Shown here one piece after another: positions 242 to 37,689 of a stretch of DNA of 38,201 nt (position 1 is the stretch's first letter; each line of letters begins with the position of its first letter). The notes under the pieces are model-generated. The model was not told the DNA's origin, did no database searches, and saw nothing but the letters and a program-made list of their open reading frames with translations. This DNA is from a virus: the IMG/VR virus record IMGVR_UViG_3300009788_000197, positions 1-38,201 of that record; one strand, given 5' to 3'. The translations under genes were made by a program, and so were the position numbers.

Positions 242-243
242 AA

Positions 244-588: not shown

Positions 589-598
589 CCTTGTCCCC

Positions 599-1057: not shown

Positions 1058-1064
1058 TGCGACC

Positions 1065-5279: not shown

Positions 5280-5280
5280 T

Positions 5281-5907: not shown

Positions 5908-5919
5908 TTGCTAACTCCT

Positions 5920-6630
5920 CTAAGTTGTAGCGAGTACGCCGCCTACGAGCGGATCGCGGACTGTACTGAATCCTCTGTTCGTTACTGATAAACCATCAAA
6001 CGCAAATGGGATCTTGAGCCTATGAACTTTAGCTAGCTTCCCACCAGCGTTTGAATCAAGCGTGTTGCCGAACCCGAGGCCCGGAGCATTAACATTCATG
6101 CCAGCGAACGAGAATGCGTCGTTGCTGCTGCTGTAGCAAATGATGTAGTCGATGCGGACACCGCCTGCGGCTACCTTCTGCATGTTTGTGTAGATGAAGT
6201 TGGCGACGTCGTCATCGTCAGTTGGATTGAAATCGACATCGATCGCAAGTAGCACCGACGCACTCGTAAGGTTCTGATAGAAGACACGAGTCGCGCTAGT
6301 GAGCAGGATCATGATATCGATCAGCTTCGGAGGTGTGCCCTGCGAGGTGTTCTGGCCGATCTTGATCTTCAGTAAGTTTCGATACTCGGCATCGGTTTGA
6401 CCTGGGACTCTCGCAAGGACGACGATAGTTCCGAACCGATCGAGTTGAACACCAACAGCAGAGTCAAGTGCGCGACCTGCAATCAATTGGATAGCTGTGT
6501 CTTCAAGGTCCTGGATCTGTTCGGCCATCGCCTCGACGACGCCCTCGATATTCGGCAGTTCCTTGTACTGCTCCAGCAACCGATTTTTGGCATCAGTCTC
6601 ATGGGTGGTGATTTGGATGATGTCTGCCAT
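5920..6630 (-). CDS. Tail protein I-like baseplate protein (DUF2612-like)
   Basis: Located right after the J-like gene, as gpI is in P2/Mu-type baseplates. The N-terminal half is helical and carries the segment RALDSAVGVQLDRFGTIV followed by R-x-P-G-x-T-D-A-E-Y-R (about 73-84), a pattern I associate with DUF2612/gpI-type proteins that connect wedge and fibre. The C-terminal half is Gly/Asn-rich beta. The product should sit at the outer edge of the baseplate and anchor fibres. Family assignment is from memory of motifs; role is well supported by gene order. Confidence 0.75.
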   Translation of the reverse strand: MADIIQITTHETDAKNRLLEQYKELPNIEGVVEAMAEQIQDLEDTAIQLIAGRALDSAVGVQLDRFGTIVVLARVPGQTDAEYRNLLKIKIGQNTSQGTPPKLIDIMILLTSATRVFYQNLTSASVLLAIDVDFNPTDDDDVANFIYTNMQKVAAGGVRIDYIICYSSSNDAFSFAGMNVNAPGLGFGNTLDSNAGGKLAKVHRLKIPFAFDGLSVTNRGFSTVRDPLVGGVLATT

Positions 6631-6639
6631 AACGTTTCC

Positions 6640-8727: not shown

Positions 8728-9089
8728 ATCGATACTCCTAAAATCTCGCTGAAGTCAATGATTCCATCGGTCGCAATGCACTGGAATGTTAATGTCAGAT
8801 TCCTAGTAGCAGGATCGATATCCATTTCAAATTGGGTTAGCTCGATAACTCCTGGCGTGTTCAGTATTTCATTCTTGAATGCCGCATCCATCGCCGTGGG
8901 ATTTGGATTCTTCTTTAGAATTTCCTGATGGTACGGGACGCCTATTTCAGTATCCAGAAACCACTCACCGAAAAACGTTCGTAGACGCTGTCGAAGAAGT
9001 TGGACGACTTCATCAGTGCTTTCGATGAACGTCGCTTCGTTGTTAGTGATATCGATGTCACCAGCTTCGGTTTGTTTGATGTCTGTCAT
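8724..9089 (-). CDS. gp25/gpW-like baseplate wedge protein, 121 aa
   Basis: Small wedge protein of the gp25-like family that links wedge and tube/hub in contractile tails. The segment STDEVVQLLRQRLRTFFGEWFLDTEIG (split here: EVVQLLRQRLRTFFGEWF, then DTEIGVPY) is characteristic: the 'E-W' and D/E-x-G-x-P-Y motif of the family. Length is normal. Start and stop overlap neighbours by ATGA on both sides, so it is translated with the rest of the baseplate genes. Confidence 0.85.
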   Translation of the reverse strand: MTDIKQTEAGDIDITNNEATFIESTDEVVQLLRQRLRTFFGEWFLDTEIGVPYHQEILKKNPNPTAMDAAFKNEILNTPGVIELTQFEMDIDPATRNLTLTFQCIATDGIIDFSEILGVSI

Positions 9090-9628
9090 GCAACTGGCCT
9101 CGCTGGATCTACTAAAGGATTGGGTGGTCCATCACTATCGACTCCAGTAGTGGTTATCGTAAGCAACAGAAATGCATCTCTGAAGAACGGCGGGAAGTCT
9201 GATAGATCGGCATCGCCAACCTTCGGCGCGTCCTTTAACTCGATGATCTTCGCCTTGCCAGCAGCTAGTGAAGGGGCATCGATTACCGTCGAAGATATTG
9301 CCGACCATGTCGTGAATGTAGTAGGTGCTCCGATCGATGTTCCGACAGCGACAGCGGCAATAGATGAAAGCATCGCAGTCTCCCAAGCTTCGGCGAAGTT
9401 GATAGCACCTTCCTCCTCGTCGGTCGTATCTTCTAGTGCTTCAAGCTCTGTAATGAATGTGGCCTTATCGAATGTGAATGTTAGTCCTGGACCTTGAAGT
9501 CCAGGCAATGACATCTTGCTTGTGACTCGATCGCTCACCCAATTTGCAAAGTTGGTCGCCCATACATCAGTCACCACCAGAGGTAGTAGCTTGAATGTGG
9601 ATCTCCAAGTTGCGAGTGGATCAATCAT
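9086..9628 (-). CDS. Unknown baseplate-region protein, 180 aa
   Basis: I do not recognise this gene. It lies between the spike and the gp25-like gene with ATGA overlaps at both ends, so it is almost certainly a baseplate or tail protein. The N-terminus is aromatic and Trp-rich (VVTDVWATNFANWVSD), followed by an acidic stretch (ALEDTTDEEEGAINFAEAW), a central Ala/Ser/Thr region and a Pro-rich end. No signal peptide or catalytic motif is visible. It could be a hub-to-wedge adaptor. Confidence 0.65.
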   Translation of the reverse strand: MIDPLATWRSTFKLLPLVVTDVWATNFANWVSDRVTSKMSLPGLQGPGLTFTFDKATFITELEALEDTTDEEEGAINFAEAWETAMLSSIAAVAVGTSIGAPTTFTTWSAISSTVIDAPSLAAGKAKIIELKDAPKVGDADLSDFPPFFRDAFLLLTITTTGVDSDGPPNPLVDPARPVA

Positions 9629-10353
9629 ACTTTCTTATTCCCATCGTTTAAGACTTTCAGCGCCAAATATGTCGCAGAATTAACAGGAACACTAGTAGGC
9701 CCAACAGCAGTACCGTGAGTGTGTGTCGCATCTGCATCCAAGTGTTGAGAGTTGAGATCCCACATCTCACCCGTCGGTCCTTTGATGTTGGATTGACCTG
9801 CTGCGTTCATCGAGAATTCGCCGATCGGATTTTTGATCTCAATTTCTCCTGTGGCTTTCATCACGATATCCGATGCAACGTATTTCATGTGCAACGCATT
9901 AGGCACGACTGCAATCGGCGGCGTAGTAAGAGGGTATCCACCGGGGAAGAAAAACCCATCCGATAGATCATGCTTTCGAACATCTTGAGGATCTTGCGGC
10001 CCACCGAATGTTTTATATCGATCAATGGATCTCTCAGAGAAAATAACCAATCCGACATCGCCAGGAACTAATGGGAAGGCGACGAAGGCGAGAGTCGTTC
10101 TTGGGAACAACACCGGCACTTTATTCAGGAGCGGGAGAGGTATAGGCGGCAAAGGAAATGGAAGTTCGCCCTGTTTAAAAGTCCGAAGCAACAGAGGTTG
10201 AATGTTGGCAGTTCCGGTAAGCGGATCATAGGTCACGACTGTGCCAGGCATCGCGGTATGCACATCACACAGACGATTCTCGATAGCATCCTGAAGGACT
10301 TGCCCCAGGGTCGGCGTCTCGACAGTATTTGTTTCTGTTTTGCTACCCGCCAA
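9625..10353 (-). CDS. Membrane-puncturing spike, gp138-like
   Basis: Central tail spike that pierces the outer membrane. The N-terminal half has the OB-fold text of gp138-type spikes: DPLTGTANIQPLL (about 45-57), a Pro-rich run, LVPGDVGLVIFSERSID (about 94-110). The second half is a beta-helix with repeats (KATGEIEIKNPIGEFSM) and a C-terminal THTHG, a site type that often binds a metal at spike tips. The gene overlaps the hub gene by 11 nt. Family recognition is fair to good; the tip metal is an inference from HxH. Confidence 0.8.
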   Translation of the reverse strand: MAGSKTETNTVETPTLGQVLQDAIENRLCDVHTAMPGTVVTYDPLTGTANIQPLLLRTFKQGELPFPLPPIPLPLLNKVPVLFPRTTLAFVAFPLVPGDVGLVIFSERSIDRYKTFGGPQDPQDVRKHDLSDGFFFPGGYPLTTPPIAVVPNALHMKYVASDIVMKATGEIEIKNPIGEFSMNAAGQSNIKGPTGEMWDLNSQHLDADATHTHGTAVGPTSVPVNSATYLALKVLNDGNKKV

Positions 10354-18775: not shown

Positions 18776-19741
18776 TTACGTCAATGTGTTCAAGAAGAAC
18801 ACGCCCAACTCAGCAGCGATCTGTTTCATGTCGATCGCCATGTCACCCTCGACACGATCTGACTCCAGGTGATTCATTCGGAACTTCTTCATTCGAGTAC
18901 CGGCCTGGGTCGCGCCCAAGTATCCAGTCCAAGAGAAGGTGTATCCGGCTGAAGGAATCATGATGCCAGGATTTGGAGCCGCGTAGACCAATAGGGCATT
19001 GTTGCCATAAAGGAATGAGAAAGAACCAGTGGCTCCTTCCGTCGCGGTGTTCTCGGTTGCATTTGCAACGAGATACTTGTCCACGCCGAACAAGCTTGCG
19101 AGCAGGTCGACCGTTAGGATCGCCTTCTGCACATACTTGATCCGATCGCGGATGTCCGGGTGATTCTTGAGGGCACGGTGAGTGCCTGGGCCAACTACTA
19201 GAACGTTTGGACGGAAGCCAGTCTTTTCCTTGACGGCGTCCTGCTGCGCATCAACGTCCTCGATCGGAGTTGAAGATGCAACGTCCCACTTCGTTCCTGG
19301 GGTGATGTCACCACCAGTAGTTGATCCAGTCCAAATGCTGGTTGTGAAATACGCTGCGGTGAAGATCTTCTCCTTGCGAAGTAAAAGCTTCTGCGTGACG
19401 TACATGGTAGCATCACGGTCCGCATCCAAAGGCTGATCGGTGTTGGCACGAGTTTGATCATCCACGTCCTTGTGCAACGCCCAAATGTCAGCGTTGTAGT
19501 TTGGAGTGTTGTCAACCTCGAAACCAGTACCGGCAGACTCTGTGCCTGGGGCGCGCTTCTCGGCTTCATCTTTGAACCAGAAATCTTTGTCATAAACAAA
19601 GTACCGATCCGACTTCTTGGTAACTGGGACGTTCGGGAAAACTCGATCCGCGATGAAGTCCTCTGCCGCCTGGATAAAGGCGATCGAGATATTCGTCAGG
19701 GGTCGATTGACATGAACGTCACTTAGCGTAGGTTGTGGCAT
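18776..19741 (-). CDS. Major capsid protein, 321 aa
   Basis: Recognised by position (after decoration gene) and by the sequence style of lambda-E/DUF-type capsids: start PQPTLSDVHVNRPLTNIS, segment RYFVYDKDFWFKDEAEKRAPG, central GFRPNVLVVGPGTHRAL, and a C-terminal FRMNHLESDRVEGDMAID. HK97-fold residue patterns (Asp/Asn-rich E-loop region, 'RPNVLVVG' strand) are visible. RBS AGGAG precedes the ATG. Length is typical for capsids of this type. Confidence 0.85.
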   Translation of the reverse strand: MPQPTLSDVHVNRPLTNISIAFIQAAEDFIADRVFPNVPVTKKSDRYFVYDKDFWFKDEAEKRAPGTESAGTGFEVDNTPNYNADIWALHKDVDDQTRANTDQPLDADRDATMYVTQKLLLRKEKIFTAAYFTTSIWTGSTTGGDITPGTKWDVASSTPIEDVDAQQDAVKEKTGFRPNVLVVGPGTHRALKNHPDIRDRIKYVQKAILTVDLLASLFGVDKYLVANATENTATEGATGSFSFLYGNNALLVYAAPNPGIMIPSAGYTFSWTGYLGATQAGTRMKKFRMNHLESDRVEGDMAIDMKQIAAELGVFFLNTLT

Positions 19742-19765: not shown

Positions 19766-20134
19766 TTAAGCCAATCGGCCTGGACGAGTTATCGATACAG
19801 AAACAACGTCGCCATCGGCTCCAGATGCTTCCAACAAACGGCCAATGATGTACTCGGTAGTCGCTGCGGCTTTCGCCTTGCCAGCTGCATCGCAAGATAC
19901 CAACGCACCTTTAGCAAGTGCGGCAGATGCTACGATCTTCGAGACACCAGTAACCATGACATCAGCAGGTTGGCCAGATACGGGCTTGTCCTGAAGAATG
20001 CCATCAATGGCCTCTCCCGTTCCCGCAAGATTGACTCCGGTGGATGTGAACTTGACGCAGAAGAACTGCTTCGCGCTCAAATCCGCCGCAGCGTCTTCGT
20101 GACCAATTCTAAAACCTGGTTGTTGAGTAGCCAT
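19766..20134 (-). CDS. Capsid decoration/cement protein (DUF2190-like), 122 aa
   Basis: Small Ala/Gly/Val-rich protein encoded between scaffold and capsid genes. The pattern QFFCVKFTSTGVNLAGTGEA, then VTGVSKIVASAALAKGALV and the end GDVVSVSITRP matches DUF2190-type cement proteins: beta strands with Ala-Gly turns and a final V-S-hydrophobic strand. The ATG shares a base with the preceding TAA. It would stabilise the capsid at the time of DNA filling. Confidence 0.8.
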   Translation of the reverse strand: MATQQPGFRIGHEDAAADLSAKQFFCVKFTSTGVNLAGTGEAIDGILQDKPVSGQPADVMVTGVSKIVASAALAKGALVSCDAAGKAKAAATTEYIIGRLLEASGADGDVVSVSITRPGRLA

Positions 20135-21126
20135 TATGCAACCCCTTTCCGCTTCTCAGCTTCGTACTCTTTGTACAGTTCAGGGTGCTGCTTCAACACT
20201 AGGTCGATCGCGGCAGTCTTGGTGATTGATTTGTCGCTGTCCTTGATGATGTCGTCAGCGGCCTTCTCGATTTTCTCCCAAGCACCTTGACCGTGGCGGG
20301 TCTGGTTGCTTCCGCCAGTTCCAAGTTCTTCGAAGACAGAAGCCTTCTCGACTTTTTCGTGAGCGGACTTGAGGACAGCTTCAGTAGTTTCGCCGTTCTC
20401 CTTGCTGACTTCATACGCTGACTTGAGAACGCGGGCAATTTTCTTGCCCTCTTCGCCTTCGTGTCCCAAGGCATTTGCTTTCGCCTCGTACTCTTTCAAC
20501 ACGCGAGCGTCCCTTTCGGCTTTCAGCTCATCGGCTAGGGTGATGTTCTTCGCTGTCTGTGCCGCCAATGCGGTATTAGAAGCTTGAACTTGTTTGCAAA
20601 CGACTTCGAGCGATGGTCGCAAGGCTTCGTCTACGCCTGATAGATCGAATGATCCATCTTCCTTCATAACTGGAATCTTGGGCATATCTCCACCTCCTTT
20701 GCCCTCTTTGTCGACAGCTTCAGTTTCGGCTTTTTTCTTTGCAGCAGCCGCCGCAGCCTCATCCTCTTCTGCCTTTTTGATCTCTTCGGGCGTTTTCTCA
20801 TCGCCCTCCTTCTTCACTTCTTTTCCGCCAAGGCTCTCAAGTGCTTTCATGAGATTGGCTTTATTGAGCGGCGAATCATCGCTGCCCACCATTCTCATTA
20901 CGGCCTTTAGAACTTTGACCTCCTCTTCTCCAAGATCGAGGTTTTTGGCGACTTCGTCGACCTTGTCCTCGTCCTTGAGATCCGCTTTCAGGATCTTCTC
21001 CAACAAACTTTTCATGCAAGTATCTCCATTTTCTTTGACGACCAAAAACCTCTTTTTTAAATTGGCACCTTTCGGCACCAATGAAGCTTCATAACCTGTG
21101 TAATCGGATAGTAGAGTGAGTGGCAT
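20134..21126 (-). CDS. Scaffold protein carrying an XkdF-like N-terminal segment, 330 aa
   Basis: Mostly charged, helical and Ala/Glu/Lys-rich (KKAEEDEAAAAAAKKKAE and long coiled coil), typical of phage scaffolds just upstream of capsid genes. The first 30 residues are different: TGYEASLVPKGANLKKRFL matches the end of XkdF-type prohead proteases (the S-L-V-x-x-G-A-N motif). In XkdF relatives I know, this motif usually sits in the protease itself before the scaffold part, so the gene boundary here may divide one domain (see findings). The gene starts one base after the preceding stop. Confidence 0.8.
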   Translation of the reverse strand: MPLTLLSDYTGYEASLVPKGANLKKRFLVVKENGDTCMKSLLEKILKADLKDEDKVDEVAKNLDLGEEEVKVLKAVMRMVGSDDSPLNKANLMKALESLGGKEVKKEGDEKTPEEIKKAEEDEAAAAAAKKKAETEAVDKEGKGGGDMPKIPVMKEDGSFDLSGVDEALRPSLEVVCKQVQASNTALAAQTAKNITLADELKAERDARVLKEYEAKANALGHEGEEGKKIARVLKSAYEVSKENGETTEAVLKSAHEKVEKASVFEELGTGGSNQTRHGQGAWEKIEKAADDIIKDSDKSITKTAAIDLVLKQHPELYKEYEAEKRKGVA

Positions 21127-21127
21127 T

Positions 21128-22915
21128 TTATTTCAGCTCCGTACGTCGGGCGAAACCGCCAATAGAGAAGGCGTTGATATCAAAATTCTTGACTGCTTCC
21201 CAGATTTCGAGATCGTCAATGATAACTCCAAGCAACCAACTCCCTTTTTTGACCTTTTCTCCATCTAACTCGAAATCGACTCGGGCGATATAACTTTCTA
21301 CGACTTTGGCGTCGGCTCTGATCTTATGTCTTAAACCAACTACCCTATGATCTGCAAGAAATGCCCACGCAGTTTTCTCAATCTCACGCGGTATAATAAT
21401 GTCAGTCTGTGCATCAACCTCAAGTGGTTCTAGGACTACGCCCAACACGAACCGTTGTTCTTCGTCGGCTTTCAGGATCTGGACTTTAACTTCTTTTTCG
21501 AAGGTGTCCGGTTTGGGCTTGACCTGCTCCTTGCAAATCCGTAGAGGCTCACCTATTTCGGGTTGTGATTCCTTTACGTTAAACCCTAGTGCCGCAGCGA
21601 TTAGAGTGTCATCTTCCTTTTCGACGACTACCATTTCTTCCGGCAATCCGTACCATCCGGTCTGGGCTGTGTTGAGTTCGTATTGGCCACCAGCTGATTT
21701 CAGTAGTGCGCCGTTACTAAACCCAGGCGCTATCGCCCACTTGACCGCTCCATCCAACTCCGAGATGCTATTGATCCATCGTACATCAAGAAGTCCCAAC
21801 CTGCTATTTTCAGTGAAGTTGTCGGTATGTAAGTTGATTAGATGCTTGCGGCGATCTTCGAACCCCAGAGGTGTTAAGTCCTGTCCCCAGTAGAGAAGGT
21901 CGAAAAGGAAAATTTTGAAGGAATCTCCGTTAGGTACAGCGTAGATCTCTGCCGAGAAATCGTGTTCAACGGCAAGAACTGCCGCCTTCTCCTCTAGGTA
22001 ATCGCCTAGCCTGTCTACCCCGAATTCGTCCTCGTACCAGATGCGCGCCTGGTTGCCTTTTTTCTCCATGATCCCGCGGCGTCCGACCATCACAGGATGG
22101 ACCCCAACCGGCAACCTGACTTGCGACCATGCCCAGGGTTCATCGAGATCGATCAAAGGCACATTCATCACAGGTGTGGCGAACGCTGGCTTCTGTAATC
22201 TGATCTGTTGGAACGGCTCGTACCCGTCGGCTTTATTTATAAGGCTATCTTGGAGAGCGTCGTCCAAAACAGGATTGCCAGGATCACCATCACGGATCTT
22301 CTGAGGAAGAGATTTTGCAAGGTCGTCCGATAAATCGAATGAAGACACTGCGTCAGGTGTTTCGGACAGAACATCCCAAAATTCCCCCGGCCATAATGAT
22401 TCGATCTCAGTACCATCAGCGAGAACGAGTGTGTGTATATGAATCCCATCGTAAGCAGAAGTCCTCACTAGCAACTGGTGATCGTGGATGCCGGTGCCAT
22501 CATCCTTGGTCGTGAGCTCCGACCCATCTGGCATAATGATTTTGTGAACGTGACCGCCGCTCTCGGTAACAATATCGACAATCTCGCTGCCGAACATGTG
22601 CTCGTGACCGCCGTCATCCTCAGTTATGACAGTCGTGCCATCGGGGAGTATGAATAGGTGAGTGTGCCGACCATCGAACAGAGACTTCTTACCGTCTCGA
22701 TCTAATCGGTGAATGTGGATGCCAGCTTCGGGGATGAACCGCTCAACGTTTTCGATCGCTTTAAGTAATAGACTCCGCCCCAGGGTGACACCCTCTTTGT
22801 AGGCTTTCTTCTTAACGTCGATCGCTTCCTTCATGATCGGTCCCAGTGGTTCCAATGCACGAGCCTTGCGGCGGTACTGCCTCGATAGATCTGACCAAGT
22901 TGCCTCGAATGTCAT
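21128..22915 (-). CDS. XkdF-like prohead protease fused to HxH repeats and a degenerate ligase-like domain, 595 aa
   Basis: ATG 22915 overlaps the MuF stop (ATGA); an upstream in-frame start at 22957 lies inside MuF and lacks support. Domains: (1) residues about 64-161 carry six His-x-His motifs (67, 84, 104, 122, 144, 159) in short beta-like repeats with P-D-G; (2) residues about 230-425 resemble the adenylation domain of ATP-dependent ligases: SAEIYAV in place of D-G-E (321-327), FLFDLLYWGQDLTPLGFEDR (336-355), NGALLKSAGGQYE (401-413), but the catalytic Lys of K-x-D-G appears replaced by Leu near LPVGVHP; (3) residues about 478-592 match XkdF: LGVVLEPLEVDAQTD, FLADHRVVGLRHK, INAFSIGG. Likely the prohead protease; the ligase-like part is probably inactive. 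Confidence 0.75.
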   Translation of the reverse strand: MTFEATWSDLSRQYRRKARALEPLGPIMKEAIDVKKKAYKEGVTLGRSLLLKAIENVERFIPEAGIHIHRLDRDGKKSLFDGRHTHLFILPDGTTVITEDDGGHEHMFGSEIVDIVTESGGHVHKIIMPDGSELTTKDDGTGIHDHQLLVRTSAYDGIHIHTLVLADGTEIESLWPGEFWDVLSETPDAVSSFDLSDDLAKSLPQKIRDGDPGNPVLDDALQDSLINKADGYEPFQQIRLQKPAFATPVMNVPLIDLDEPWAWSQVRLPVGVHPVMVGRRGIMEKKGNQARIWYEDEFGVDRLGDYLEEKAAVLAVEHDFSAEIYAVPNGDSFKIFLFDLLYWGQDLTPLGFEDRRKHLINLHTDNFTENSRLGLLDVRWINSISELDGAVKWAIAPGFSNGALLKSAGGQYELNTAQTGWYGLPEEMVVVEKEDDTLIAAALGFNVKESQPEIGEPLRICKEQVKPKPDTFEKEVKVQILKADEEQRFVLGVVLEPLEVDAQTDIIIPREIEKTAWAFLADHRVVGLRHKIRADAKVVESYIARVDFELDGEKVKKGSWLLGVIIDDLEIWEAVKNFDINAFSIGGFARRTELK

Positions 22916-23955
22916 ACCGCTCCCTCCAATAACACTACCGCCCAACCACAGTTGCAATTTGGATGCGCGGGTGGATGCGCAATGTTGATCCCAAGTTTAG
23001 CTACATAGAAATCTTCGTCGATGCCAACCTTAGCGCCAGCCATCGGCCTGCAAATTCTGCAAACTCGATCGTATGGCGTGACGATCCATTCTTTCTGGGC
23101 TAGTTTTCGATCGTACAAACCTTTGTCAGCATTCTGATTTGCGACTTCGAGCAGCCCTCGGTTGTTAGCAGTCATCGCCTCAGTACGTGCGATTGTCTCG
23201 CTCCGATACTTCAACTGCTTCAACGTGAACTGACTCATGATGTCTTCGAGTCGTGCACCTTTGACACCTTGACCCACAAGAGCAGCGCGACGATTGATCA
23301 CAGCCTGCACCTGGCGGTCGTTGAGTCCAATGATTTCCTTGATCGACTTCGCGGTCGTCCTGGGCGGGAGCCCTGCGTTCATCGAATCGGCGATGATCCT
23401 CTGGATGCCCTTCTGCGTATCGGACTGCACGTTCTGAACTAGCTCGCCAATGTGGGAGTCGATCCAAGAACGTATAGCAGGGTTATCGGCGTTGAAGACT
23501 ACATCAGGCCGAAGAGTTGGAATTAGTTTTTTGATTGATTGACGGAAGAGGAATTTCGACTTAGCAGCGGAATCGGATACACCTTCGAGGATCGCCATAT
23601 CGACGCCCTTGATCGCACCCCTGAAGTCTTCCCACGGCACCACGTCGAATGCATCCTGGGCATTGTTCCTGGAGATAGCATCGGCCAGGTCATTCAGATC
23701 TATGTTCTTCTGGAAATCGCGTATACCTCTAACCAGCGAACCTCGGACGAGTGGTCTAATACGACGGGCAATGTTGTGTAGGGCTTGGAACTCCGGCGAG
23801 ATTGGTCTTCCCCTGGTCCGTGGGACCTTGGGAAACTTCGGCTCTTTGTTAACCGATTCCAGATCATCCAACCAGAAATCCACACTATTGCAAACACTAT
23901 CATTGTGCCCTTTGATAGTTGTTCGCCAATGTAACTGCCCATTCTCACTGCTCAT
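22912..23955 (-). CDS. MuF/SPP1 gp7-like minor head protein, 347 aa
   Basis: Minor capsid protein often injected or involved in portal/head assembly. The C-terminal part carries the MuF signature: TIARTEAMTANNRG, then W-I-V-T-P-Y-D-R-V-CRIC (Cys 299 and 302) and HPPAHPNCNCGW (about 327-338), consistent with a metal-binding fold. The start ATG 23955 is used because the preceding TTG has no better RBS; both are weakly supported. Located between portal and protease genes, as in SPP1 and Mu. Confidence 0.85.
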   Translation of the reverse strand: MSSENGQLHWRTTIKGHNDSVCNSVDFWLDDLESVNKEPKFPKVPRTRGRPISPEFQALHNIARRIRPLVRGSLVRGIRDFQKNIDLNDLADAISRNNAQDAFDVVPWEDFRGAIKGVDMAILEGVSDSAAKSKFLFRQSIKKLIPTLRPDVVFNADNPAIRSWIDSHIGELVQNVQSDTQKGIQRIIADSMNAGLPPRTTAKSIKEIIGLNDRQVQAVINRRAALVGQGVKGARLEDIMSQFTLKQLKYRSETIARTEAMTANNRGLLEVANQNADKGLYDRKLAQKEWIVTPYDRVCRICRPMAGAKVGIDEDFYVAKLGINIAHPPAHPNCNCGWAVVLLEGAV

Positions 23956-23974
23956 CAATACTACCCGTTAGTTT

Positions 23975-25264
23975 TTACGCCTTATCCGTATTTGACATTG
24001 GGAAATTCGCCTGACTACGAAGATGGTTCTCAAGATCCTCATCTGGGAACAACGACATGCCAGCACCAGCAAGACTAGTGACGTAAGATCCAAGCTCAGC
24101 CAGATCTACTGTCTCGATATCACCGTGAGTAATCTTCGGGAAGTCCTTCACCTTGAAAGTGTTGAGTGCAAATAGCCGTGGGATGGCGAATCGGTTGAAT
24201 ACGTCAGCGATGCCATCCATGAACGCGCCCATTGCAGAGGCAAACATCTCAGTCTTCGAGCTAGCTAATGCGAACGATCCGACCTTCTCGTGACCTAGTA
24301 GGATGAAGTCGGCCAGGACTGACATTGCAATAGCTTGGTTATATCTGTCAACGATCTTGGTGGTGTCGAATTGTCGAGTGCCGCCCGTCGATAGAAGTGT
24401 GAGGTCGTAGACGCGATTACTATTTTCATCAAACGACTGTGGCATCAGGATGCCTTCCTGCTCGTCGCGCTTGATCGAAGTAATGATCCGCCTAAGCTGT
24501 GTCGCAAGTGCCCGATCATCCGAGCTAGCGTTCGCGGATAATAGTTCGGGTGGAACCCACATGACAGGCAGTCCGGCGAGGTCGCGCTCGATGCCGATGC
24601 CTTCGATATTCTCGATGTGCTTTTTGAAGTACCAGGAGCGGTATGCGGTACGAAGAATCGATCGACCTTCGGGATTGTTTTTGCGGTGTCGAGTTCTGAA
24701 TAGGAGACTCTTCTCGATAGGAATGATCGCCTTGATACCTTTGACCATATCCCATTGCTCTAGTGCAACAAGACTATCGACTTCTTTCTCGTCGAACCAC
24801 CAACGGAACCAAGTCTCCTGGGAACGTATTGGCAATTTCCGCCAACCTATTCGCCCATCAGTGAACTTCGATCTCTTCGTCGGGTCAGCATGATCTGGCG
24901 CAACTCGCATCTTGTAGACGATCTCGTGCCAGGACCAGCCATAGACCAGCATCGAAAGGATCTCGCTGATCATCTCCTTCCAAGAATGCGACATGTCATC
25001 CATATTGGATTTCACAAAGTCGGCTGCTTCGACATCCTCTGGATCATCGCTAACCTTCTGGACGTCCCAATCGACGTTGCGGATCAACATATCGATCGCA
25101 AATATCACAGCGCCAATGATCGAATCGTTCTCGGACATCTCTTTGTAAACTGCAATGCCTCGCTCGCCGACCAACTCCCGGAGGAATTCTTCGTCGATGC
25201 GACCACCAATTTCTCTAAGGCCGGTGGTGCCCATGATCGATGTATCTAGTTTCGGCAACGTCAT
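23975..25264 (-). CDS. Portal protein (DUF935-like), 429 aa
   Basis: Dodecameric portal at one capsid vertex. The N-terminal half has IIGAVIFAIDMLIRNVDW, then MLVYGWSWHEIVYK and LPIRSQETWFRW; the middle has SILRTAYRSWYFKKHI and GIERDLAGLPVMW. This order and these motifs match the Mu gp29-like DUF935 portal family. Start overlaps the TerL stop by ATGA with GGAGG before it. C-terminal part ends in Leu/Ala-rich helices that would form the crown. Confidence 0.85.
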   Translation of the reverse strand: MTLPKLDTSIMGTTGLREIGGRIDEEFLRELVGERGIAVYKEMSENDSIIGAVIFAIDMLIRNVDWDVQKVSDDPEDVEAADFVKSNMDDMSHSWKEMISEILSMLVYGWSWHEIVYKMRVAPDHADPTKRSKFTDGRIGWRKLPIRSQETWFRWWFDEKEVDSLVALEQWDMVKGIKAIIPIEKSLLFRTRHRKNNPEGRSILRTAYRSWYFKKHIENIEGIGIERDLAGLPVMWVPPELLSANASSDDRALATQLRRIITSIKRDEQEGILMPQSFDENSNRVYDLTLLSTGGTRQFDTTKIVDRYNQAIAMSVLADFILLGHEKVGSFALASSKTEMFASAMGAFMDGIADVFNRFAIPRLFALNTFKVKDFPKITHGDIETVDLAELGSYVTSLAGAGMSLFPDEDLENHLRSQANFPMSNTDKA

Positions 25265-26673
25265 ACCCTCCAGGTGCTTGACTTGAACATACCTTGTGGA
25301 CCTATCTTATCAACTTTCTTCGGCTTCATTTGCCATAGTGCTTGAGTAGCAGTATCTACCTGATCCTTGTACTTGGAATTTGGGAAAGTCGCATGCTCTT
25401 CTATGAAAGCCTCAACCCACTTGTGGTCCTTGGGCCTTGGTAGCCATACGTTACCCGACTGCACGAATCCAGATACAGCCTCAGCACGAGCAGTCTTCGA
25501 TCCCTTTGGCGTTATTGGGATGATCCCAGGAATAAGCGCTCTCAAATTTTCTATGAGCGCGTAACCATTGGCAGTTTTCTCGATGTAATGCTTGGTGCAC
25601 TGCGGCCACTTGCTAGCAGCGGCGATTAAAGCCTTCTCAGAGGCAATGTAGCCCATTTTCTCTCTGAATTGATCCACCAGGTAGAAGTCGGCTTGTTTGG
25701 CTGCCCACGTTTGAATTACGCAGTATGCGGAGGTCTTCTTGTCGGTGAAGGACGGATCCACCGACTGACACCATTTTGTAATGCCCGATGGGAGCTCATC
25801 GTAGTACTTCCACCACTGACGCTTGAAGATGTCGCCCTCGGCAGGACTAGGCTGGCCTTGGAATAGTGCGGCGTAGAATCTCTCGCCGATATCAATGCGG
25901 ATTTCAGCGAGTGCTTCCTCATCGTATCGAGCTGGGCAAAGGGCTTCACCGTCCTTTCTACCCATTGGGTCAGTTTCTTCGTTATCGCAAGTTGCTGGAA
26001 TGTTGATGACGTCCCAAGTGCCCTCGTCGATCAACTTGCCCGAGAGATCAGACTCATGCCATCTGGTCTGCAACACAACGAAGACTGCGCCAGGTTCTGC
26101 CCTGGTCCTGGTCACGGTTCGCATCCAGTCATAGTTGCGACCTTGAATTGTTTCTGACTCAGCCTCCTGCCAGTTCTTCACTGGGTCATCGATGATGATT
26201 AGGTGACCGCCCTTGCCAGTCAATGGACCACCAATCCCCGCGGTATTCATGCCGCCATCGCCGCTGGTAGTCGCCCAACTATCGGCAGCACTCGAGTCGG
26301 GAGAGATCGCAACGTTGATCGCTGGATTGGCTTGGATCTCATTACGAACCTTGCGACCCCAACCAGCGGCGAACGAAGCAGAATAGGTAGCCAGTATCAC
26401 TTTTTTGTTTGGAAAGAGGTCTAGGAACCAGATTGGAGTCCAGAACGATATCAGTGTGGACTTACCATGCCGAGGTGGAAGAGACACGATCAGCTTGCCC
26501 CCACCCTTAGCGACCATCGCAGCGATCTTCCGACTGATCATCTTTAGGTAATCGAAAGCAACCCAGTCCTCAGAAGTACTGCCCTGGACACACATCATCT
26601 TCTCGGCGTAAGTGTGCGGGAACAGTCGCCAGAGTTCATCGGTGTGGTCTAGGTTTTTGGCAGGACTACCCAT
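25261..26673 (-). CDS. terL: Terminase large subunit
   Basis: DNA-packaging motor and nuclease. Walker A is LPPRHGKS (65-72), Walker B LIIIDD (158-163) and the C-motif region AVFVVLQTRWHESD (196-209). The RNase-H-like nuclease domain has SVDPSF (D306), HYIEKTANG (E365) and KDQVDTATQAL (D437/D440), the usual acidic residues. Length 470 aa is normal. The gene overlaps a small membrane-protein gene by 8 nt, and its ATG follows GAGG at four bases. The small subunit is not adjacent but lies about 4 kb upstream, with 16 genes between. Confidence 0.95.
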   Translation of the reverse strand: MGSPAKNLDHTDELWRLFPHTYAEKMMCVQGSTSEDWVAFDYLKMISRKIAAMVAKGGGKLIVSLPPRHGKSTLISFWTPIWFLDLFPNKKVILATYSASFAAGWGRKVRNEIQANPAINVAISPDSSAADSWATTSGDGGMNTAGIGGPLTGKGGHLIIIDDPVKNWQEAESETIQGRNYDWMRTVTRTRAEPGAVFVVLQTRWHESDLSGKLIDEGTWDVINIPATCDNEETDPMGRKDGEALCPARYDEEALAEIRIDIGERFYAALFQGQPSPAEGDIFKRQWWKYYDELPSGITKWCQSVDPSFTDKKTSAYCVIQTWAAKQADFYLVDQFREKMGYIASEKALIAAASKWPQCTKHYIEKTANGYALIENLRALIPGIIPITPKGSKTARAEAVSGFVQSGNVWLPRPKDHKWVEAFIEEHATFPNSKYKDQVDTATQALWQMKPKKVDKIGPQGMFKSSTWRV

Positions 26674-32158: not shown

Positions 32159-32989
32159 TCATCCCTCATCCGGTTCCTCGGGCGTCATCACTGATGCATC
32201 TCTCAACACCAACTCAGCGGTTGTTTCGAGCCAAACTTTAGCGCCACATGCCAATGGTTTCTCTGGCCTATAGATCAAATCGCTCTCCCCCTTAAATTCA
32301 ACACCGAAGCATTTGTAATTTTCGTCTGAAGTTTTGATAGTGATAACAGGCAGTTCGTAATTATCGTTCTTCTTATTTGCCCGAATATTGTGCTGATTGA
32401 CGTGTACCTTCTTGATTGATCCCGATTCGAGGGTGATCTCTCCGGAACCCTCTGCACCTGGGACGCCCCCACTGTCACCTGAGCCGCCTGAATCGGCTTC
32501 GGAGGCCCCAGGGTCATATTGTTCCCAATCGAACTTCAGGAGCTTCGTATAGCTATCCATCTCGGACTCTGAGAAGGGCATGGTCGAAATCATGTCATCC
32601 ATGTCGAATTCTTCAGACACCCGAGCGAGTAGTGCGGCGAGCTTCAATGGATCCGCATCGAACTTGGTCTCGTTGGTTTCGGCGGCGATCCGCTCGGCAT
32701 GGGCCTGTGTGATCTTGCCCATCATAAAGCAGACAGCGGTAGTCATCCCGATCGACTCCATCGCCTTCAACCTATGATTCCCATTGACAACCTCGAAAAA
32801 GCCTTTCTTGTCAGTGTCACGGACGATCAGGTTCTCGACCTGTTTGTTGCGCAGGAGATTTTTCTTCAGCTTCTCCATTTTTTCGAGCGACTTTTTGTCT
32901 TCAGCCTTCTTGTAGTTCCAATCGGCTTCGACCAAATTTTCTAGTGGGATCTCTTTGTAAAATTCTAGTGCAGATTTTTTCTTCGCCAT
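32159..32989 (-). CDS. ParB/Srx-fold protein, 276 aa
   Basis: Residues about 15-80 match the ParB/sulfiredoxin-like domain: IPLENLVEADWNYKK, then LRNKQVENLIVRDTD and FEVVNGNHRLKAMESIG (the G-N-x-R motif, like G-E-R-R in ParB). The middle is helical, followed by an acidic Gly/Ser linker (about 160-185) and a beta-rich C-terminal part. RBS AAGGA lies before the ATG. Proteins of this fold act as nucleases, nucleotide-binding adaptors or partners of DNA-modifying enzymes. In bacterial dpd clusters a further protein (DpdB) is needed with DpdA for modification; whether this gene plays that role is inference from location. Confidence 0.7.
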   Translation of the reverse strand: MAKKKSALEFYKEIPLENLVEADWNYKKAEDKKSLEKMEKLKKNLLRNKQVENLIVRDTDKKGFFEVVNGNHRLKAMESIGMTTAVCFMMGKITQAHAERIAAETNETKFDADPLKLAALLARVSEEFDMDDMISTMPFSESEMDSYTKLLKFDWEQYDPGASEADSGGSGDSGGVPGAEGSGEITLESGSIKKVHVNQHNIRANKKNDNYELPVITIKTSDENYKCFGVEFKGESDLIYRPEKPLACGAKVWLETTAELVLRDASVMTPEEPDEG

Positions 32990-33126
32990 CTCGGTTCCTT
33001 AGAGGCTGTTGTGTAAAGCTGTTGTAAAGGTGGAGCTGGCCCGAGATAGCTTCGGTAGTATTCCGGTTTTTACGTCCCGGACCAGCCTGGAGGATTGGAA
33101 ATCATAACTCTACAAATGATTCCACC
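32990..33126 (-). promoter_or_regulatory. Intergenic region with predicted structured RNA upstream of the ParB-like gene
   Basis: On the minus-strand transcript: a 6-bp closing helix GGUGGA (33126-33121) with UCCACC (33034-33029); a 5-bp hairpin AUCAU/AUGAU (33120-33116 with 33105-33101, loop of 10); a 12-bp helix 33086-33075 with 33046-33035 including two G-U pairs, and a 28-nt apical region containing CGG/CCG. The closing helix abuts the long helix at its 3' side. G-U pairs only work on the minus-strand RNA, which agrees with transcription direction. The leader ends about 40 nt before the start codon. A riboswitch, attenuator or stability element is possible; no match to a known class was recognised and no U-run follows. 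Confidence 0.4.
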
Positions 33127-33468
33127 CTATTTATTCAAGTCTCGAATACGATTGGCGATGTCAGTGCCATGCTGTGCTGCACTCTTGCCAGAGTGAGCTG
33201 GATGCCTTGCTGCCAAGTCCGATGCCAAATTCAGTGTCTCTCGGGCCGATACTTTGGCCGCTTCCCTCATTCCAACTTGCATGTCTGCTTCAGTATAAAT
33301 CTTGGGCTGTTCTTCCTCTTCACCCGCTGGCGGATCTTCTACCGTCTCAGTTGCTGCCGGTGGGTCTTCGACCGGTGGTGGTGCTGCACCTTCTGCCGCT
33401 GGATCTTCGGGCTTGTTGGTCTCATCTTCTGGTGCCGAAGTGCCGGCCGGATTTTCTTCGTTGCTCAT
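33127..33468 (-). CDS. Acidic Pro/Glu-rich protein, 113 aa
   Basis: Start chosen at ATG 33468 because AGGAG is seven bases upstream; a longer start at 33507 lacks this. The first 70 residues are acidic, Pro- and Ala-rich (EDPAAEGAAPPPVEDPPA) and should be disordered; the end is a small helical domain (DLAARHPAHSGKSAAQHGTD). Possibly a DNA-mimic or charge-based linker protein. Lies between dpdA and the ParB-like gene. Not recognised. Confidence 0.6.
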   Translation of the reverse strand: MSNEENPAGTSAPEDETNKPEDPAAEGAAPPPVEDPPAATETVEDPPAGEEEEQPKIYTEADMQVGMREAAKVSARETLNLASDLAARHPAHSGKSAAQHGTDIANRIRDLNK

Positions 33469-33510
33469 TGAATTTCTCCTAGTGAATATTTGAGTGATTA
33501 CATTCATTTT

Positions 33511-34347
33511 TTACTTTACCTCATCGAATTCAATCCCCCTTGCTTTCCACAGATCGGTCACATAGGTCGCCATCTTTTCGAACTCACGGACGTTGTGTCT
33601 CGATCGCGCCTTGTAACCCGAATCACCTTCTTTATCGAGCAGAGAAAAGTCGGCGAGTTTGGCGATCTCTCGATCCTTCGCCTGATACTTTTTCATCTTC
33701 CGAGTTTCCCAATTATAGACGGTTGCGTATTGCTCACCAGCGAGCCAGCTAGTCGAGTCGACCGAGTAGAATGGGAAGCGTTCGAGCCAATCTAGTTGAG
33801 TGACGCCGAATCCGTGGACCCTGACCTTGCGCCCATTCTTCCAATGCTTACCGATGGTTTGGAAGCATCGATCGAAGTGCTGCGTGGCCTGCTCGACCGA
33901 TGTGGATCTCCCCGCGGTTCCGCCCAGGGCGATGTAGTCATATTTTTCACACATCTCCTCGAGTCGCGAATATGGTTCTCTCGGAATTGCGGAGTGAAAC
34001 ACAGGTAGCGGTGCGAAGCCCTTGGATTCCATATACTCCTGATTTGACTTAGTCCCTTTCCAATCGCCAATGACATCGAGCGCAGCGTAGACCGTGACTC
34101 GATCGGTGTTCGGTCGAAGGAAGTTCATGTACTTCTCAATATCGACTTGGCCACCTTGAGCCCATGCCGAGAATGCTCCGGAGTCGATGAACAAATTATC
34201 GAACCGACTCAACCGCTCCCAGTTATCTTCCAACCAAGTAGTCTTGTCGATGATATTGAAACATGAAAACAGAACGTTGCGACCGCCACCGTCGTAGATC
34301 TTATCGAGATGACCTGTGGTCTCACCACCTGCGAAGTAGAGTTTCAT
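33511..34347 (-). CDS. dpdA: DpdA-like DNA 7-deazaguanine transglycosylase (TGT fold)
   Basis: Would exchange guanine in DNA for preQ0 or a derivative. The segment NLFIDSGAFSAW (about 51-62) is the DpdA-type motif with catalytic Asp near D55; YAALDVIGDW (about 87-96) supplies another Asp; ALGGTAG (140-146) and RVHGFGVT (176-183) match the TIM-barrel loops of this family, and VDSTSW (196-201) the later conserved strand. Length 278 aa is like phage DpdA rather than bacterial tRNA-TGT; the tRNA-TGT zinc Cys cluster is not visible. ATG overlaps the queC stop by ATGA. Placement with queC, folE and queE makes DNA modification very likely. Confidence 0.85.
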   Translation of the reverse strand: MKLYFAGGETTGHLDKIYDGGGRNVLFSCFNIIDKTTWLEDNWERLSRFDNLFIDSGAFSAWAQGGQVDIEKYMNFLRPNTDRVTVYAALDVIGDWKGTKSNQEYMESKGFAPLPVFHSAIPREPYSRLEEMCEKYDYIALGGTAGRSTSVEQATQHFDRCFQTIGKHWKNGRKVRVHGFGVTQLDWLERFPFYSVDSTSWLAGEQYATVYNWETRKMKKYQAKDREIAKLADFSLLDKEGDSGYKARSRHNVREFEKMATYVTDLWKARGIEFDEVK

Positions 34348-35075
34348 AGTGCTAGGTCCTCATGGCGGGAATTCAAGAATCCACTGATCCGACCTAGACA
34401 CGCTCGGCACTCACCACATGGTTCATCGCCGCCTTTATAGCAAGACCAACTCAGCGCCATTGCTTTCAAACCGGACGGATATCGAGCACCGAATTCGATG
34501 GTCTCCTGCTTGCTTAGAAATTGAAGAGGAGCGTCGATTGAGATAGGTCTCCTGGGAGATACTGCTGTAGCCCGTACTGCATTATTTTCGATATTATATG
34601 CATCTGATCCGATTAGATCGATCGGGCTCTCCTGGGCTGGATTTGCGATCCTGAGAGCGTTCTCAATCGATCTCATAGCTGCATAGGTGCAATCAGCGAA
34701 AGGACGCTCGGCGATCTCTGAAACACCGATCACCAGATTGTCCGCGTCGATCGACCAAGCGTAGGCGGCAGCTAGTGACAGGAACACCATGTTTCGACCA
34801 GGTAAGAACGCCATGTCCTGCCCAGTGTCATCCTTCGCATCGACTTCGATGTCTGGTGATGTGATTGCGCTCTTACATAAACCGAGCGGCACCTGGACCA
34901 CAGTCATTTGGAAGTTGAATATCGTAGCGATGTCATGGGCCGATTTATGCTCCTTGGAATGTTTCTGACCGTATTGAAAATGGATGGCGTGGACTTCATC
35001 ATACTTTCGATGTGCGTACACGGCGCAAACTGCGCTATCCAATCCACCACTTAAAAGAATTACCGCCTTATTCAT
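34344..35075 (-). CDS. queC: 7-cyano-7-deazaguanine (preQ0) synthase QueC
   Basis: Converts 7-carboxy-7-deazaguanine to preQ0 with ATP and ammonia. PP-loop SGGLDS is at 9-14; FLPGRNMVFLSLAAAYA (about 89-105) is the conserved QueC helix region; zinc ligands are C212, C220, C223 and C226 (in SCYKGG then PCGECRAC). Length 243 aa is normal. There is no glutamine-amidotransferase domain, so it is not the Gat-QueC type that yields a further modified base; preQ0 is the expected end product here. ATG overlaps the HerA-like stop. Confidence 0.95.
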   Translation of the reverse strand: MNKAVILLSGGLDSAVCAVYAHRKYDEVHAIHFQYGQKHSKEHKSAHDIATIFNFQMTVVQVPLGLCKSAITSPDIEVDAKDDTGQDMAFLPGRNMVFLSLAAAYAWSIDADNLVIGVSEIAERPFADCTYAAMRSIENALRIANPAQESPIDLIGSDAYNIENNAVRATAVSPRRPISIDAPLQFLSKQETIEFGARYPSGLKAMALSWSCYKGGDEPCGECRACLGRISGFLNSRHEDLAL

Positions 35076-37114
35076 CCGTGTTGTGTCTCCGTTGCTCCGA
35101 TAGTTACTGGAATGGGCACGTCTGAGATCGCTGGACCGAAGGCGTAGAATTCACCAGGCTCCAGGTCTCTCAATGCCCATGCTTCTTTTTTATTGATTTC
35201 CAATTCGTCTGCGGCTCGATTCACATCGATGTCCAGGTTGGTTCGACCGATCAGTTTGTTTAGGAGCTCCGCTGCGACGTCCTTATTAAATTTCGATAGT
35301 CGTTGAGTAGCTGCGATCAAACAGTAACCGCGCTTACGACCCCTGGTAGCGATCGATGCGACTGCTTCTCGGCATCCTGTTTTCTCCTTGCCGCGCTGGG
35401 GTGCAAACATATGGGCTTCGTCTAGGATGACCACTACATCTTGCCAGAGTTCTCGCTTGGCATTGATCATCGTGTTGAAGAAATCTCGGACGAAGTGCTT
35501 GCGGAATTCGAATCCCATTTCGAATAGGTCGACAACCATAGACTGATCGCCCTTCAGGAAGTCAATCGCGGACTGAGTTGTGTCCGAGATATCCTGCCCT
35601 TCCACATACAAGGTCGTCTTCGATCGGCATAGATTGACGAATTCACCCTCTGGATCCAACACCAAGAACTTGGTGCCCGATTCTTGAAGCTGCTCGGCCA
35701 ACTTTCGAATCGTCCACGACTTGCCGCCGCCAGAGTTGGCTTGGATCAGCATCCTGGTTTTCATCAGTTCATTGAGATCGACTTTGCAGCCTTTGCCAAG
35801 GGTGGCTATCGAAGGTCGAGGTCGTACATTATCACGATTGCGGCTATCACCTTTTCCTGTTCCAATCTTGGCAGACCCTCCAGAGACTTGTAAATCGTCT
35901 CGAACGACTCTATCTTCTGACGGTCGTGACTCTTTTCCAGCACTACAGGTGGTGGTGGTAGTTTGTCCTTCGGTTGTTTTGCCATCGCCTAAATACTCCG
36001 TTAGTTTTATTTCAGTCTCTCGCGCCATATCTCGAATGCCTATCAGCTCCTTGCGATCACAGTGCTTCAATGACATGCGTTTGCGAATGTAGTTGCGAAT
36101 GTATTTCATCCATTTGAGACAAAGACCGGCGTGGTGATCAGATCCACATCGTTTTTTCTCTCGATCGTAGACCTCGGCAACTTCTTTCGGGGTGGACTTC
36201 TTGCCCTTGGTTTCATTAAGTGTTCGACGAGCCGCCCCGTAGTCCCGCTCATCGTAAGTACCAGGGGGCAACTTGTCGATGACGTCTCTTTTGATTCGGA
36301 CATAATGGTGCAAGGTTTTATAAGCGATGCCAGTTTCTCGGCTAAAATCTGCGAGGGTTCTAATCCCTTTGTACTCGGACCAGTGTCCACCACCACCATG
36401 ATCAACTTGGCAAATTGACAGCGCAAGTTCTGCAAGCTCGACACGAGATCGGTTAATTGAGAGATGCAACTCTCTGGCACGTGCAGTACAACGATTCCAT
36501 TCTTTGTCATAGTCGGAAGCTCTCCCCAGAGGCCGCGACTTCAGATTCCGTTCGCGCTTGGGTTCAAAGTAGGCAAGTGGATCGGTCGCGACAGTAGGCG
36601 TTTCAGTAGTGTGTTTGTGTAATGTGTTTCGAGTCTCGGCGGGTTGGCGACCTTGGACGTTCCGAGCCATGTTCCTGGGAATGCCTCTGCACTTCAGATA
36701 GACCGTTGACTTCGTCACGCAATACTTCTCGGCGATCTCTGTAGCCGACATCATTGATTCTTGCCAGTCGTGGATCATCTCGAAGTAATCAGCTTTCGGT
36801 TTCGGACCTTTCTTGGTTGGTTTGAAATCTGGATCGTTAGAAGGGCCGAGTGTATTCAGCTCAATCTCAGTGAGATCTCCACCATGCATTGGCTTATAGG
36901 TAGTCGTTTTGCACTTAGGTCCAGATGGTTCGGGCTTAGCAGGCTTCGTCTCGTGTGGTGCTGGTATACCATCATCAATTCGTTTCTGGCAGGTGACAGT
37001 CATCACTTGTTTAGAGATAGGCATCACTGAGAACTTCATGCCGCAACCGCATTCGCAAGTTCGCTCCTCCAGGACAATTTTTATGCCAGCGATGTCAACT
37101 ACATTCGATTGCAT
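35072..37114 (-). CDS. HerA/DUF87-type ATPase with N-terminal zinc motif and HTH, 680 aa
   Basis: Sits between folE and queC with one-base and ATGA overlaps, so it is co-translated with the modification enzymes. Domains: zinc motif (RTCECGCGMKFSV at about 18-30 plus Cys42); HTH (SATEIAEKYCVTKSTVYLKC, about 123-142); a helical region with HWSEYKGIRTLADFSRETGI (244-263), which looks like a second HTH; a linker; then a HerA-like ATPase with Walker A QANSGGGKS (458-466), VLDPEGEF (485-492), Walker B VVILDEAHMF (561-570), an Arg-rich RGRKRG and GPAISDVPIPV (660-670). A DNA-bound translocase or remodeller is inferred. Confidence 0.85.
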   Translation of the reverse strand: MQSNVVDIAGIKIVLEERTCECGCGMKFSVMPISKQVMTVTCQKRIDDGIPAPHETKPAKPEPSGPKCKTTTYKPMHGGDLTEIELNTLGPSNDPDFKPTKKGPKPKADYFEMIHDWQESMMSATEIAEKYCVTKSTVYLKCRGIPRNMARNVQGRQPAETRNTLHKHTTETPTVATDPLAYFEPKRERNLKSRPLGRASDYDKEWNRCTARARELHLSINRSRVELAELALSICQVDHGGGGHWSEYKGIRTLADFSRETGIAYKTLHHYVRIKRDVIDKLPPGTYDERDYGAARRTLNETKGKKSTPKEVAEVYDREKKRCGSDHHAGLCLKWMKYIRNYIRKRMSLKHCDRKELIGIRDMARETEIKLTEYLGDGKTTEGQTTTTTCSAGKESRPSEDRVVRDDLQVSGGSAKIGTGKGDSRNRDNVRPRPSIATLGKGCKVDLNELMKTRMLIQANSGGGKSWTIRKLAEQLQESGTKFLVLDPEGEFVNLCRSKTTLYVEGQDISDTTQSAIDFLKGDQSMVVDLFEMGFEFRKHFVRDFFNTMINAKRELWQDVVVILDEAHMFAPQRGKEKTGCREAVASIATRGRKRGYCLIAATQRLSKFNKDVAAELLNKLIGRTNLDIDVNRAADELEINKKEAWALRDLEPGEFYAFGPAISDVPIPVTIGATETQHG

Positions 37115-37689
37115 TACCGTCCGATCAGTTGCAAGAATTCATTCCTGACTTGTGACTCTTCGAATGCGCCTCTGATAGCACTGGTGATCATAGTCGAGTT
37201 CTGTTTCCCGACTCCGCGCATGGTCATGCACATGTGCTGCGCTTCGATCACGACCATGACGCCCTTGGGTTGCAGGTGCTCTCCGATACAGTCTGCAATT
37301 TGGCCAGTCAGCTTCTCCTGAATCTGCAACCGTCGGGCGAAACAATCAACTAGCCGAGCTATCTTCGATAGACCGACTACTCGCTTCTTAGGAATATAAG
37401 CCACGTGAGCACGTCCATGAAATGGAAGCATGTGGTGCTCGCACATCGAATAGAGTTCGATATTTTTGACCGTAACCATCTGATCATAGCCTTCTCCTTC
37501 GAAAGTTTTGGATAGTATTTTCTTCGGGTCCTGGTGGTAGCCGCCATAGAACTCGCGCCAAGATTTGATCACACGGTGAGGTGTCTCCTTTAATCCTTCT
37601 CGTTTGGGATCCTCACCCATCGCAGTCAACATATCTTCGATGATGTCCTGGCCGTCGATGTGCTCTTTGACTCTGTCGTTCTGACTCAT
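37114..37689 (-). CDS. folE: GTP cyclohydrolase I FolE
   Basis: First step of the 7-deazaguanine route: GTP to dihydroneopterin triphosphate. Signature residues: [11 protein letters not shown] with zinc ligands C83 and H86, C154 in [10 protein letters not shown], and [20 protein letters not shown] (97-116). Length 191 aa is normal. I chose the ATG at 37689, which forms an ATGA overlap with the queE stop; a longer frame to 37860 lies within queE. TAA overlaps the start of the HerA-like gene by one base. Confidence 0.95.

Follow-up and report, generated by a model that had tools for sequence, protein, structure and literature searches.

What does a protein with the features of a DNA ligase do in front of a prohead protease, and can its ligase part still work? 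The question is raised by a gene at 21128–22915 of the window, i.e. the whole 38,201-nucleotide stretch of viral DNA that was analysed (IMG/VR record IMGVR_UViG_3300009788_000197). The ORF lies on the minus strand, as do all features of the window given below, an orientation absent from the sequence-only reading of this DNA. Translation from the ATG at 22915, which GGAGGGAGC shortly precedes, gives 595 amino acids; inspection of the ORF gave an alternative in-frame TTG start at 22957, resulting in 609 amino acids; the residue numbers of H-x-H motifs and XkdF sites follow this longer form. The product combines a His-x-His repeat domain, a pseudo-ligase and an XkdF protease, which bears out the triple architecture claimed in the sequence-only reading (H-x-H repeats, dead ligase domain, XkdF protease), and these unrelated domains (His-x-His, ligase fold, XkdF), of which polyvalent phage polypeptides have at least two, are here united in one chain. 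This architecture is well supported, and the function of the protein we infer. When the full-length protein was submitted to Pfam, XkdF at the C terminus was the sole domain recognised. A genome scan using the window protein as query gave no match, and a direct phage-database search with the ligase and His-x-His regions gave no useful match.

The C-terminal part (21137–21481), which had been read as XkdF-like, matched XkdF (Peptidase_S78_2, PF14550) with an E-value of 1.2e-25 and 90.4 bits, above the family cut-off of 24. Asp515, His544, Glu554, Trp586 and Ser598 were all present, and D515, H544 and S598 were each kept in 31 of the 31 rows of the XkdF alignment. Family match and residues make this domain a prohead protease of the XkdF family that has kept its conserved positions, and proteolysis itself is predicted. 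In passing, short XkdF proteases of Pseudomonas phages (L016 2950–3420, PAK_P1, and many similar records) were found labelled as DNA methyltransferase, apparently a propagated mis-annotation.

The middle domain (21620–22222) proved to be a genuine ATP-dependent DNA ligase adenylation domain, on which five routes agree, i.e. Pfam, hhalign, an independent profile and two fold models. The isolated region scored 24.9 bits (E=1.9e-5) against Pfam DNA_ligase_A_M, just below the cut-off of 26.2, and hhalign against four active ligases of related viruses aligned 194 columns with an E-value of 6.1e-7. A profile built from 51 ligase matches, with the window left out, gave 34.5 bits for the window, the best of 2,000 shuffles reaching 5.1 bits. 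The ligase features were found in the order described from the sequence (SAE replacing D-G-E, FDLLYWGQDLTPL, GALLK and QYE), and their being chance or misread motifs is ruled out by the profile, hhalign, shuffle and fold tests.

An AF2 model computed with active relatives in the alignment (the ANMV-1 row left out) had pLDDT values mostly of 70–89 in the folded core of the ligase domain, and in a Foldseek search of this model against the PDB the best 50 matches listed were all ATP-dependent DNA ligases (best E-value 1.6e-7). Structure prediction of residues 220–430 had been set beforehand as the refuting test for the ligase reading; a nucleotidyltransferase fold was present, and the 50 PDB matches listed were DNA ligases. 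Because the active sequences could have steered this first model, a control model was built from dead sequences alone (window and L077); it was of low confidence (mean pLDDT 41), and its 50 listed Foldseek matches were all DNA or RNA ligases. The ligase domain of Mycobacterium tuberculosis LigD was among the matches of both models. Among predicted structures of viral proteins, those best matches that carried a name were mostly DNA ligases together with some mRNA capping enzymes, which share the DNA ligase fold.

The catalytic residues of this domain have largely been lost. In the alignment with 48 other ligase rows, motif I is represented by the remnant VMVGRR (22079–22099), in which the nucleophilic lysine is replaced by valine (codon 22091–22093) and the aspartate by valine, with the glycine and an arginine kept; active relatives read VQKKYDGAR and the window VHPVMVGRR, so that the suspected loss of the K-x-D-G lysine is real. 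The motif III glutamate (SAE, 21947–21949) is kept, the motif IV glutamate (21713–21715) has become asparagine (SNGALLK) with the motif lysine at 21698–21700 kept, and the motif V lysine is glycine. The motif I lysine, the motif IV glutamate and lysine and the motif V lysine were kept in every full row of the 48 other ligases, the only exceptions being the intein-split L010 (motif I) and two truncated or split rows. No OB domain follows the adenylation domain, and OB, phosphoesterase, nucleotidyltransferase and 2H domains had no match anywhere in the window. Nick sealing needs an OB domain. Judged by its residues, the domain is predicted to be unable to adenylylate itself or to ligate by the known mechanism.

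Ahead of the pseudo-ligase lies the His-x-His repeat domain (22385–22723), which has a counterpart in the viral contig L033 (phmmer E=3.7e-17). Its six H-x-H motifs, set in strand-turn-strand units, are at residues 81, 98, 118, 136, 158 and 173 (67–159 when counted from the ATG), and the spacings of 17, 20, 18, 22 and 15 residues are exactly within the 15–22 described earlier. Six such motifs within 100 amino acids were reached in none of 20,000 whole-protein shuffles, and in one of 20,000 when just the histidine-rich stretch was shuffled. The L033 counterpart is 42–43% identical to that of the window, with all six H-x-H pairs aligned, and the domain was seen only in the window (plus two near-identical contigs) and L033. 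Since the related proteins of L077 and L157 are without it, the pseudo-ligase lineage as a whole does not need this domain.

H-x-H motifs bind iron in the tail-fibre tip of T4 gp37, to which the repeats had been likened. That likeness did not extend to sequence relation, as a PDB sequence search with the domain returned no relative and only a weak, unrelated match (E=0.14), and metal binding is for this reason a guess; the AF2 model placed the region at a confidence too low for His-pair geometry. With the motif as the ground for metal binding, this part of the protein is probably a metal-stabilised beta-repeat module.

The gene is placed, as expected of an XkdF protease, between portal/MuF and scaffold/capsid genes. 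Its upstream neighbours encode a MuF-type head morphogenesis protein (22912–23958; Pfam Phage_Mu_F 1.9e-9, phrog_3517), the portal protein (23975–25264; Portal_Mu 3.9e-31) and the terminase large subunit (25261–26673; phrog_38 4.7e-101). Downstream are a scaffold-like protein (20134–21126), whose putative scaffold role is suggested by position and a weak phrog_17741 match and which is 53% identical in L077, a head cement protein (19766–20134; Phage_cement_2 1.6e-7) and the major capsid protein (18776–19741; phrog_1005 1.2e-86). The order TerL-portal-MuF-fusion-scaffold-cement, homologous to that of the window, was found in L033, L035, L039, L077 and L157, with portal E-values of 1e-113 or better, and the capsid gene comes next in these five loci wherever the locus extends to it. 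Elsewhere in the window (32159–37860), ParB/DpdB-like, queuine tRNA-ribosyltransferase-like (DpdA), QueC-like, HerA-like ATPase and GTP cyclohydrolase genes are clustered, and probably form a 7-deazaguanine DNA-modification system.

The protein is not isolated. The sequence-only reading had called the triple fusion unfamiliar, and the fusion itself stands, but not its isolated status: an active ligase and XkdF share one ORF in about 20 non-redundant other viral contigs obtained in the viral contig scans, all metagenomic and always with XkdF at the C terminus, and a C-terminal prohead peptidase is a theme already described for polyvalent proteins (PMC5512222). According to the domain census, the common core of these fusions is formed by ligase, OB and LigD-like phosphoesterase-like domains ahead of XkdF, with a nucleotidyltransferase or 2H phosphoesterase as optional front domain; Pfam added uracil-DNA glycosylase in L033 and L080 and methyltransferase in L013 and L080. 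The phosphoesterase assignment comes from an HxxxxxHxDxR-like motif, a weak Pfam LigD_N match and weak PDB hits, of which the two best obtained with the phosphoesterase profile (3p4h and 3p43, E-values of a weak 0.03 and 0.06) have descriptions that fit LigD phosphoesterase structures.

L033 has, in order, 2H phosphoesterase, nucleotidyltransferase, His-x-His, active ligase, OB, uracil-DNA glycosylase, phosphoesterase-like and XkdF domains, the His-x-His domain standing immediately ahead of the active ligase. As L033 occupies the same locus with this fuller set, the window protein looks like a reduced form of the L033 architecture.

Several further ORFs were recorded among the relatives. In L010 (ORF 2–4357) and L022 (ORF 3766–8994, IMGVR_UViG_3300036766_000686) an intein-like insert is located just past the K-x-D-G of the ligase-XkdF fusion; it contains a LAGLIDADG endonuclease (7e-21 with Pfam LAGLIDADG_2), and its Intein_splicing match of 1.7e-4 stays below cut-off. 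The N-termini of the fusions in L036 (ORF 5855–9844) and L037 (ORF 1307–5218) resemble the dpdA-like protein of the window (queuine tRNA-ribosyltransferase family) with E-values of 2e-5 and 4e-6, respectively, folE adjoins both, and the N-terminus of the L022 ORF 3766–8994 is similar by eye; the likeness of L036 and L037 suggests that the capsid-protease precursor can include a DNA-modifying enzyme as well. Ligase fusions starting with a metallo-beta-lactamase domain, possibly a nuclease, were found in L045 (ORF 4868–8947) and L062 (ORF 4661–8221), and XkdF was not detected in these two ORFs. The end of the L044 ORF (5519–9931), past the phosphoesterase-like domains, has no XkdF match and looks in its sequence (ITHGTWNGLYFPPDVIEES...LEHDQKRTVGK) like a prohead protease that has diverged. 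Ligase fusions with nucleotidyltransferase and in some cases phosphoesterase-like domains, close to the ANMV-1 ligase, were present on Methanosarcinales, Methanophagales and Euryarchaeota assembly contigs (L068–L072).

Other N-terminal parts were also observed ahead of XkdF. Histidine-phosphatase-like, NUDIX-like or methyltransferase-like N-termini were recognised by eye in L108 (ORF 5723–7696), L112 (ORF 1–1911) and L085 (ORF 3295–5127), and with this variety XkdF seems to be a general carrier of cargo domains. In L099 (ORF 5297–7357) a phosphoesterase-like domain ahead of XkdF has, by eye, apparently lost its His and Asp residues, and is possibly a second kind of pseudo-enzyme in this slot. 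A 2H phosphoesterase is joined to XkdF in Arthrobacter phages (L014 3308–4447, Kharcho gp87, annotated as RNA ligase; L018 2272–3390, Waltz gp18, hypothetical). Kharcho gp87 was rejected as a relative of the window ligase, being a LigT-type 2H phosphoesterase; phrog_14859 carries the same RNA ligase label.

Loss of the catalytic residues is not confined to one gene. Sequencing error or one broken gene was dismissed, as L002 is identical, L003 has a single difference in 1,830 bases, and L077 and L157 show the loss as well; a dead ligase common to at least these two other viruses indicates a conserved lineage. L077 (L078 is the same protein from another sample) is 41% identical to the window protein across 412 aligned residues and is without the nucleophilic lysine (VQPLYKGIR), the motif IV glutamate and the motif V lysine. 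L157 is without the nucleophile (IEPIFKGGK) and the motif V lysine, and keeps the motif IV glutamate. Window, L077 and L157 formed a clade in the XkdF tree with support of 99/97; XkdF trees were used for placement because the branch of the window in the ligase tree was too long (3.79). The closest active ligase by profile was that of L080 (5.5e-27). The ligase of L079, matched by the pseudo-ligase profile (2e-6), looks dead by eye too, and since L079 falls outside the window clade in the XkdF tree, inactivation may have occurred repeatedly.

The explanation we propose, with about an even chance of being right, is that the window encodes a polyvalent-type capsid-maturation protease precursor whose N-terminal cargo was once a DNA end-repair enzyme and is here a non-catalytic binding or assembly domain. 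The precursor would be built into the procapsid beside the portal, MuF and scaffold proteins, after which XkdF would cut itself free and trim head proteins, and the N-terminal cargo, to go by the head-gene context, would stay inside the head with the DNA and enter the cell along with the genome. For the active relatives, this cargo would consist of a LigD-like enzyme that repairs the incoming DNA where it has nicks, blocked ends or uracil. The window lineage would have shed the OB, phosphoesterase and partner domains together with the catalytic residues and kept the ligase fold, whose most likely use is to bind DNA or head proteins or to act as a spacer in assembly. Relatives with intact DNA-repair enzymes at the same locus suggest that some phages carry a repair kit into the head, of which the window kept only the shell. 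A wider claim is put forward more tentatively, with the odds somewhat against it: an undescribed, widespread virus family in which a LigD-like end-repair machine (ligase, OB, phosphoesterase-like and nucleotidyltransferase domains, sometimes uracil-DNA glycosylase or 2H phosphoesterase) forms the N-terminus of the capsid protease, is loaded into the head and is delivered with the genome, the ligase of the window lineage being a pseudo-enzyme with a new structural or DNA-holding job.

The divergence of the pseudo-ligase bears on its present role. Between window and L077, cassette proteins were 53–72% identical, XkdF 64% and the pseudo-ligase 36%, and in most active pairs ligase and XkdF were about equally conserved. 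The pseudo-ligase pN was 0.45 with a pS of 0.83 (synonymous sites saturated), and pN was 0.22 for XkdF and 0.21 for the capsid protein; a pN of 0.45 at saturated synonymous sites means that the pseudo-ligase is still constrained, about two times more loosely than XkdF. Such a pattern is compatible with a non-catalytic job as well as with slow decay. According to the latter explanation, which we consider unlikely though the most serious of the rivals, the domain is a relic: the need for a packaged ligase was lost, catalysis decayed first and the OB and phosphoesterase domains followed, leaving an undeleted spacer. The twofold pN, the absence of OB, phosphoesterase and nucleotidyltransferase domains from the window, and the many relatives with unrelated or short N-terminal domains, so that none appears essential, are as a relic would have it. 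However, window, L077 and L157 are three separate viruses that still hold the domain in frame, it has kept 36% identity at saturated synonymous sites where the cassette genes have 53–72%, and in L157 it scores above the Pfam ligase cut-off, the folded core being kept. What favours a non-catalytic job over decay is that at least three viruses have retained the domain.

Less probable still, and by a clear distance, is that His-x-His domain and pseudo-ligase are assembly parts only, the former, with metal bound, serving for oligomerisation in the core of the procapsid, and that neither has a past in cargo delivery. The gene does sit among head genes, and some further phages have XkdF proteins with His-x-His motifs (RcZahn, L019, has three and a Rhizobium phage, L015, two), but several distinct DNA-end enzymes occupy the same slot in the active relatives, an outcome not expected if the role were purely structural. 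That the domain is not dead, performing other chemistry or adenylylation and ligation via a displaced lysine, is very improbable: L077 (LYKG) and L157 (IFKG) have a lysine two residues past the normal nucleophile and the window keeps the motif III glutamate and motif IV lysine, but its V-M-V-G has no lysine there, the motif IV glutamate and motif V lysine are lost as well, and the window has no OB domain, which nick sealing requires.

If the packaging part of the proposed explanation is true, forming the front part of the head protease would be a simple route for loading enzymes into the head, some viruses would introduce a DNA end-repair kit of their own along with their genome when entering the cell, and the pseudo-ligase lineage would allow the importance of the fold for head assembly to be tested separately from catalysis. 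For annotation, a gene named DNA ligase or RNA ligase beside a portal gene may encode a cargo-bearing head protease, and having the ligase fold does not equal having the activity.

Among known systems, the XkdF/Peptidase_S78_2 proteases (phrog_3017, PF14550) share with the window the C-terminal domain, its conserved residues and the genomic position, and differ in that many members have short or other N-terminal parts. The T4 gp37 tip is likewise part of a phage structural protein in which His-x-His motifs recur; gene, position and repeat context differ. Like bacterial LigD, the active relatives have one or two phosphoesterase-like domains in addition to an ATP-dependent ligase and an OB domain; unlike LigD, they are fused to a capsid protease, have a different domain order and show no polymerase domain, and the window keeps the dead adenylation domain only. 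The ligase of virus ANMV-1 (KP703175.1, AJP62006.1) has the nucleotidyltransferase, ligase, OB and phosphoesterase-like modules of the fusions, aligned over 72% of the L010 query, and is encoded directly after a portal-like gene, but its catalytic residues are intact and its ORF has no XkdF domain.

A literature search, covering mostly open-access papers and no preprints and therefore weak evidence of absence, returned no LigD-like ligase-XkdF fusion, His-x-His partner or pseudo-ligase branch. In the text of Iyer et al. 2017 (PMC5512222) as searched, ligase was mentioned solely where RNA ligases and 2H domains are discussed, XkdF and HxH were absent, and neither a DNA ligase-XkdF nor a His-x-His fusion was found. 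A C-terminal head peptidase on multi-enzyme proteins is already known. The polyvalent proteins of phages and conjugative elements described there carry several unrelated enzyme domains per polypeptide; their assemblin-like peptidases are always C-terminal, are encoded among head genes and belong to proteins proposed to be packaged and injected, and inactive domains, such as MuF-C of Mu, are described among them as well (PMC5512222). The window differs in that the peptidases described there are called assemblin-like, not XkdF, and it shares with polyvalent proteins the multi-domain polypeptide, the C-terminal prohead peptidase, the location among head genes and an inactive domain.
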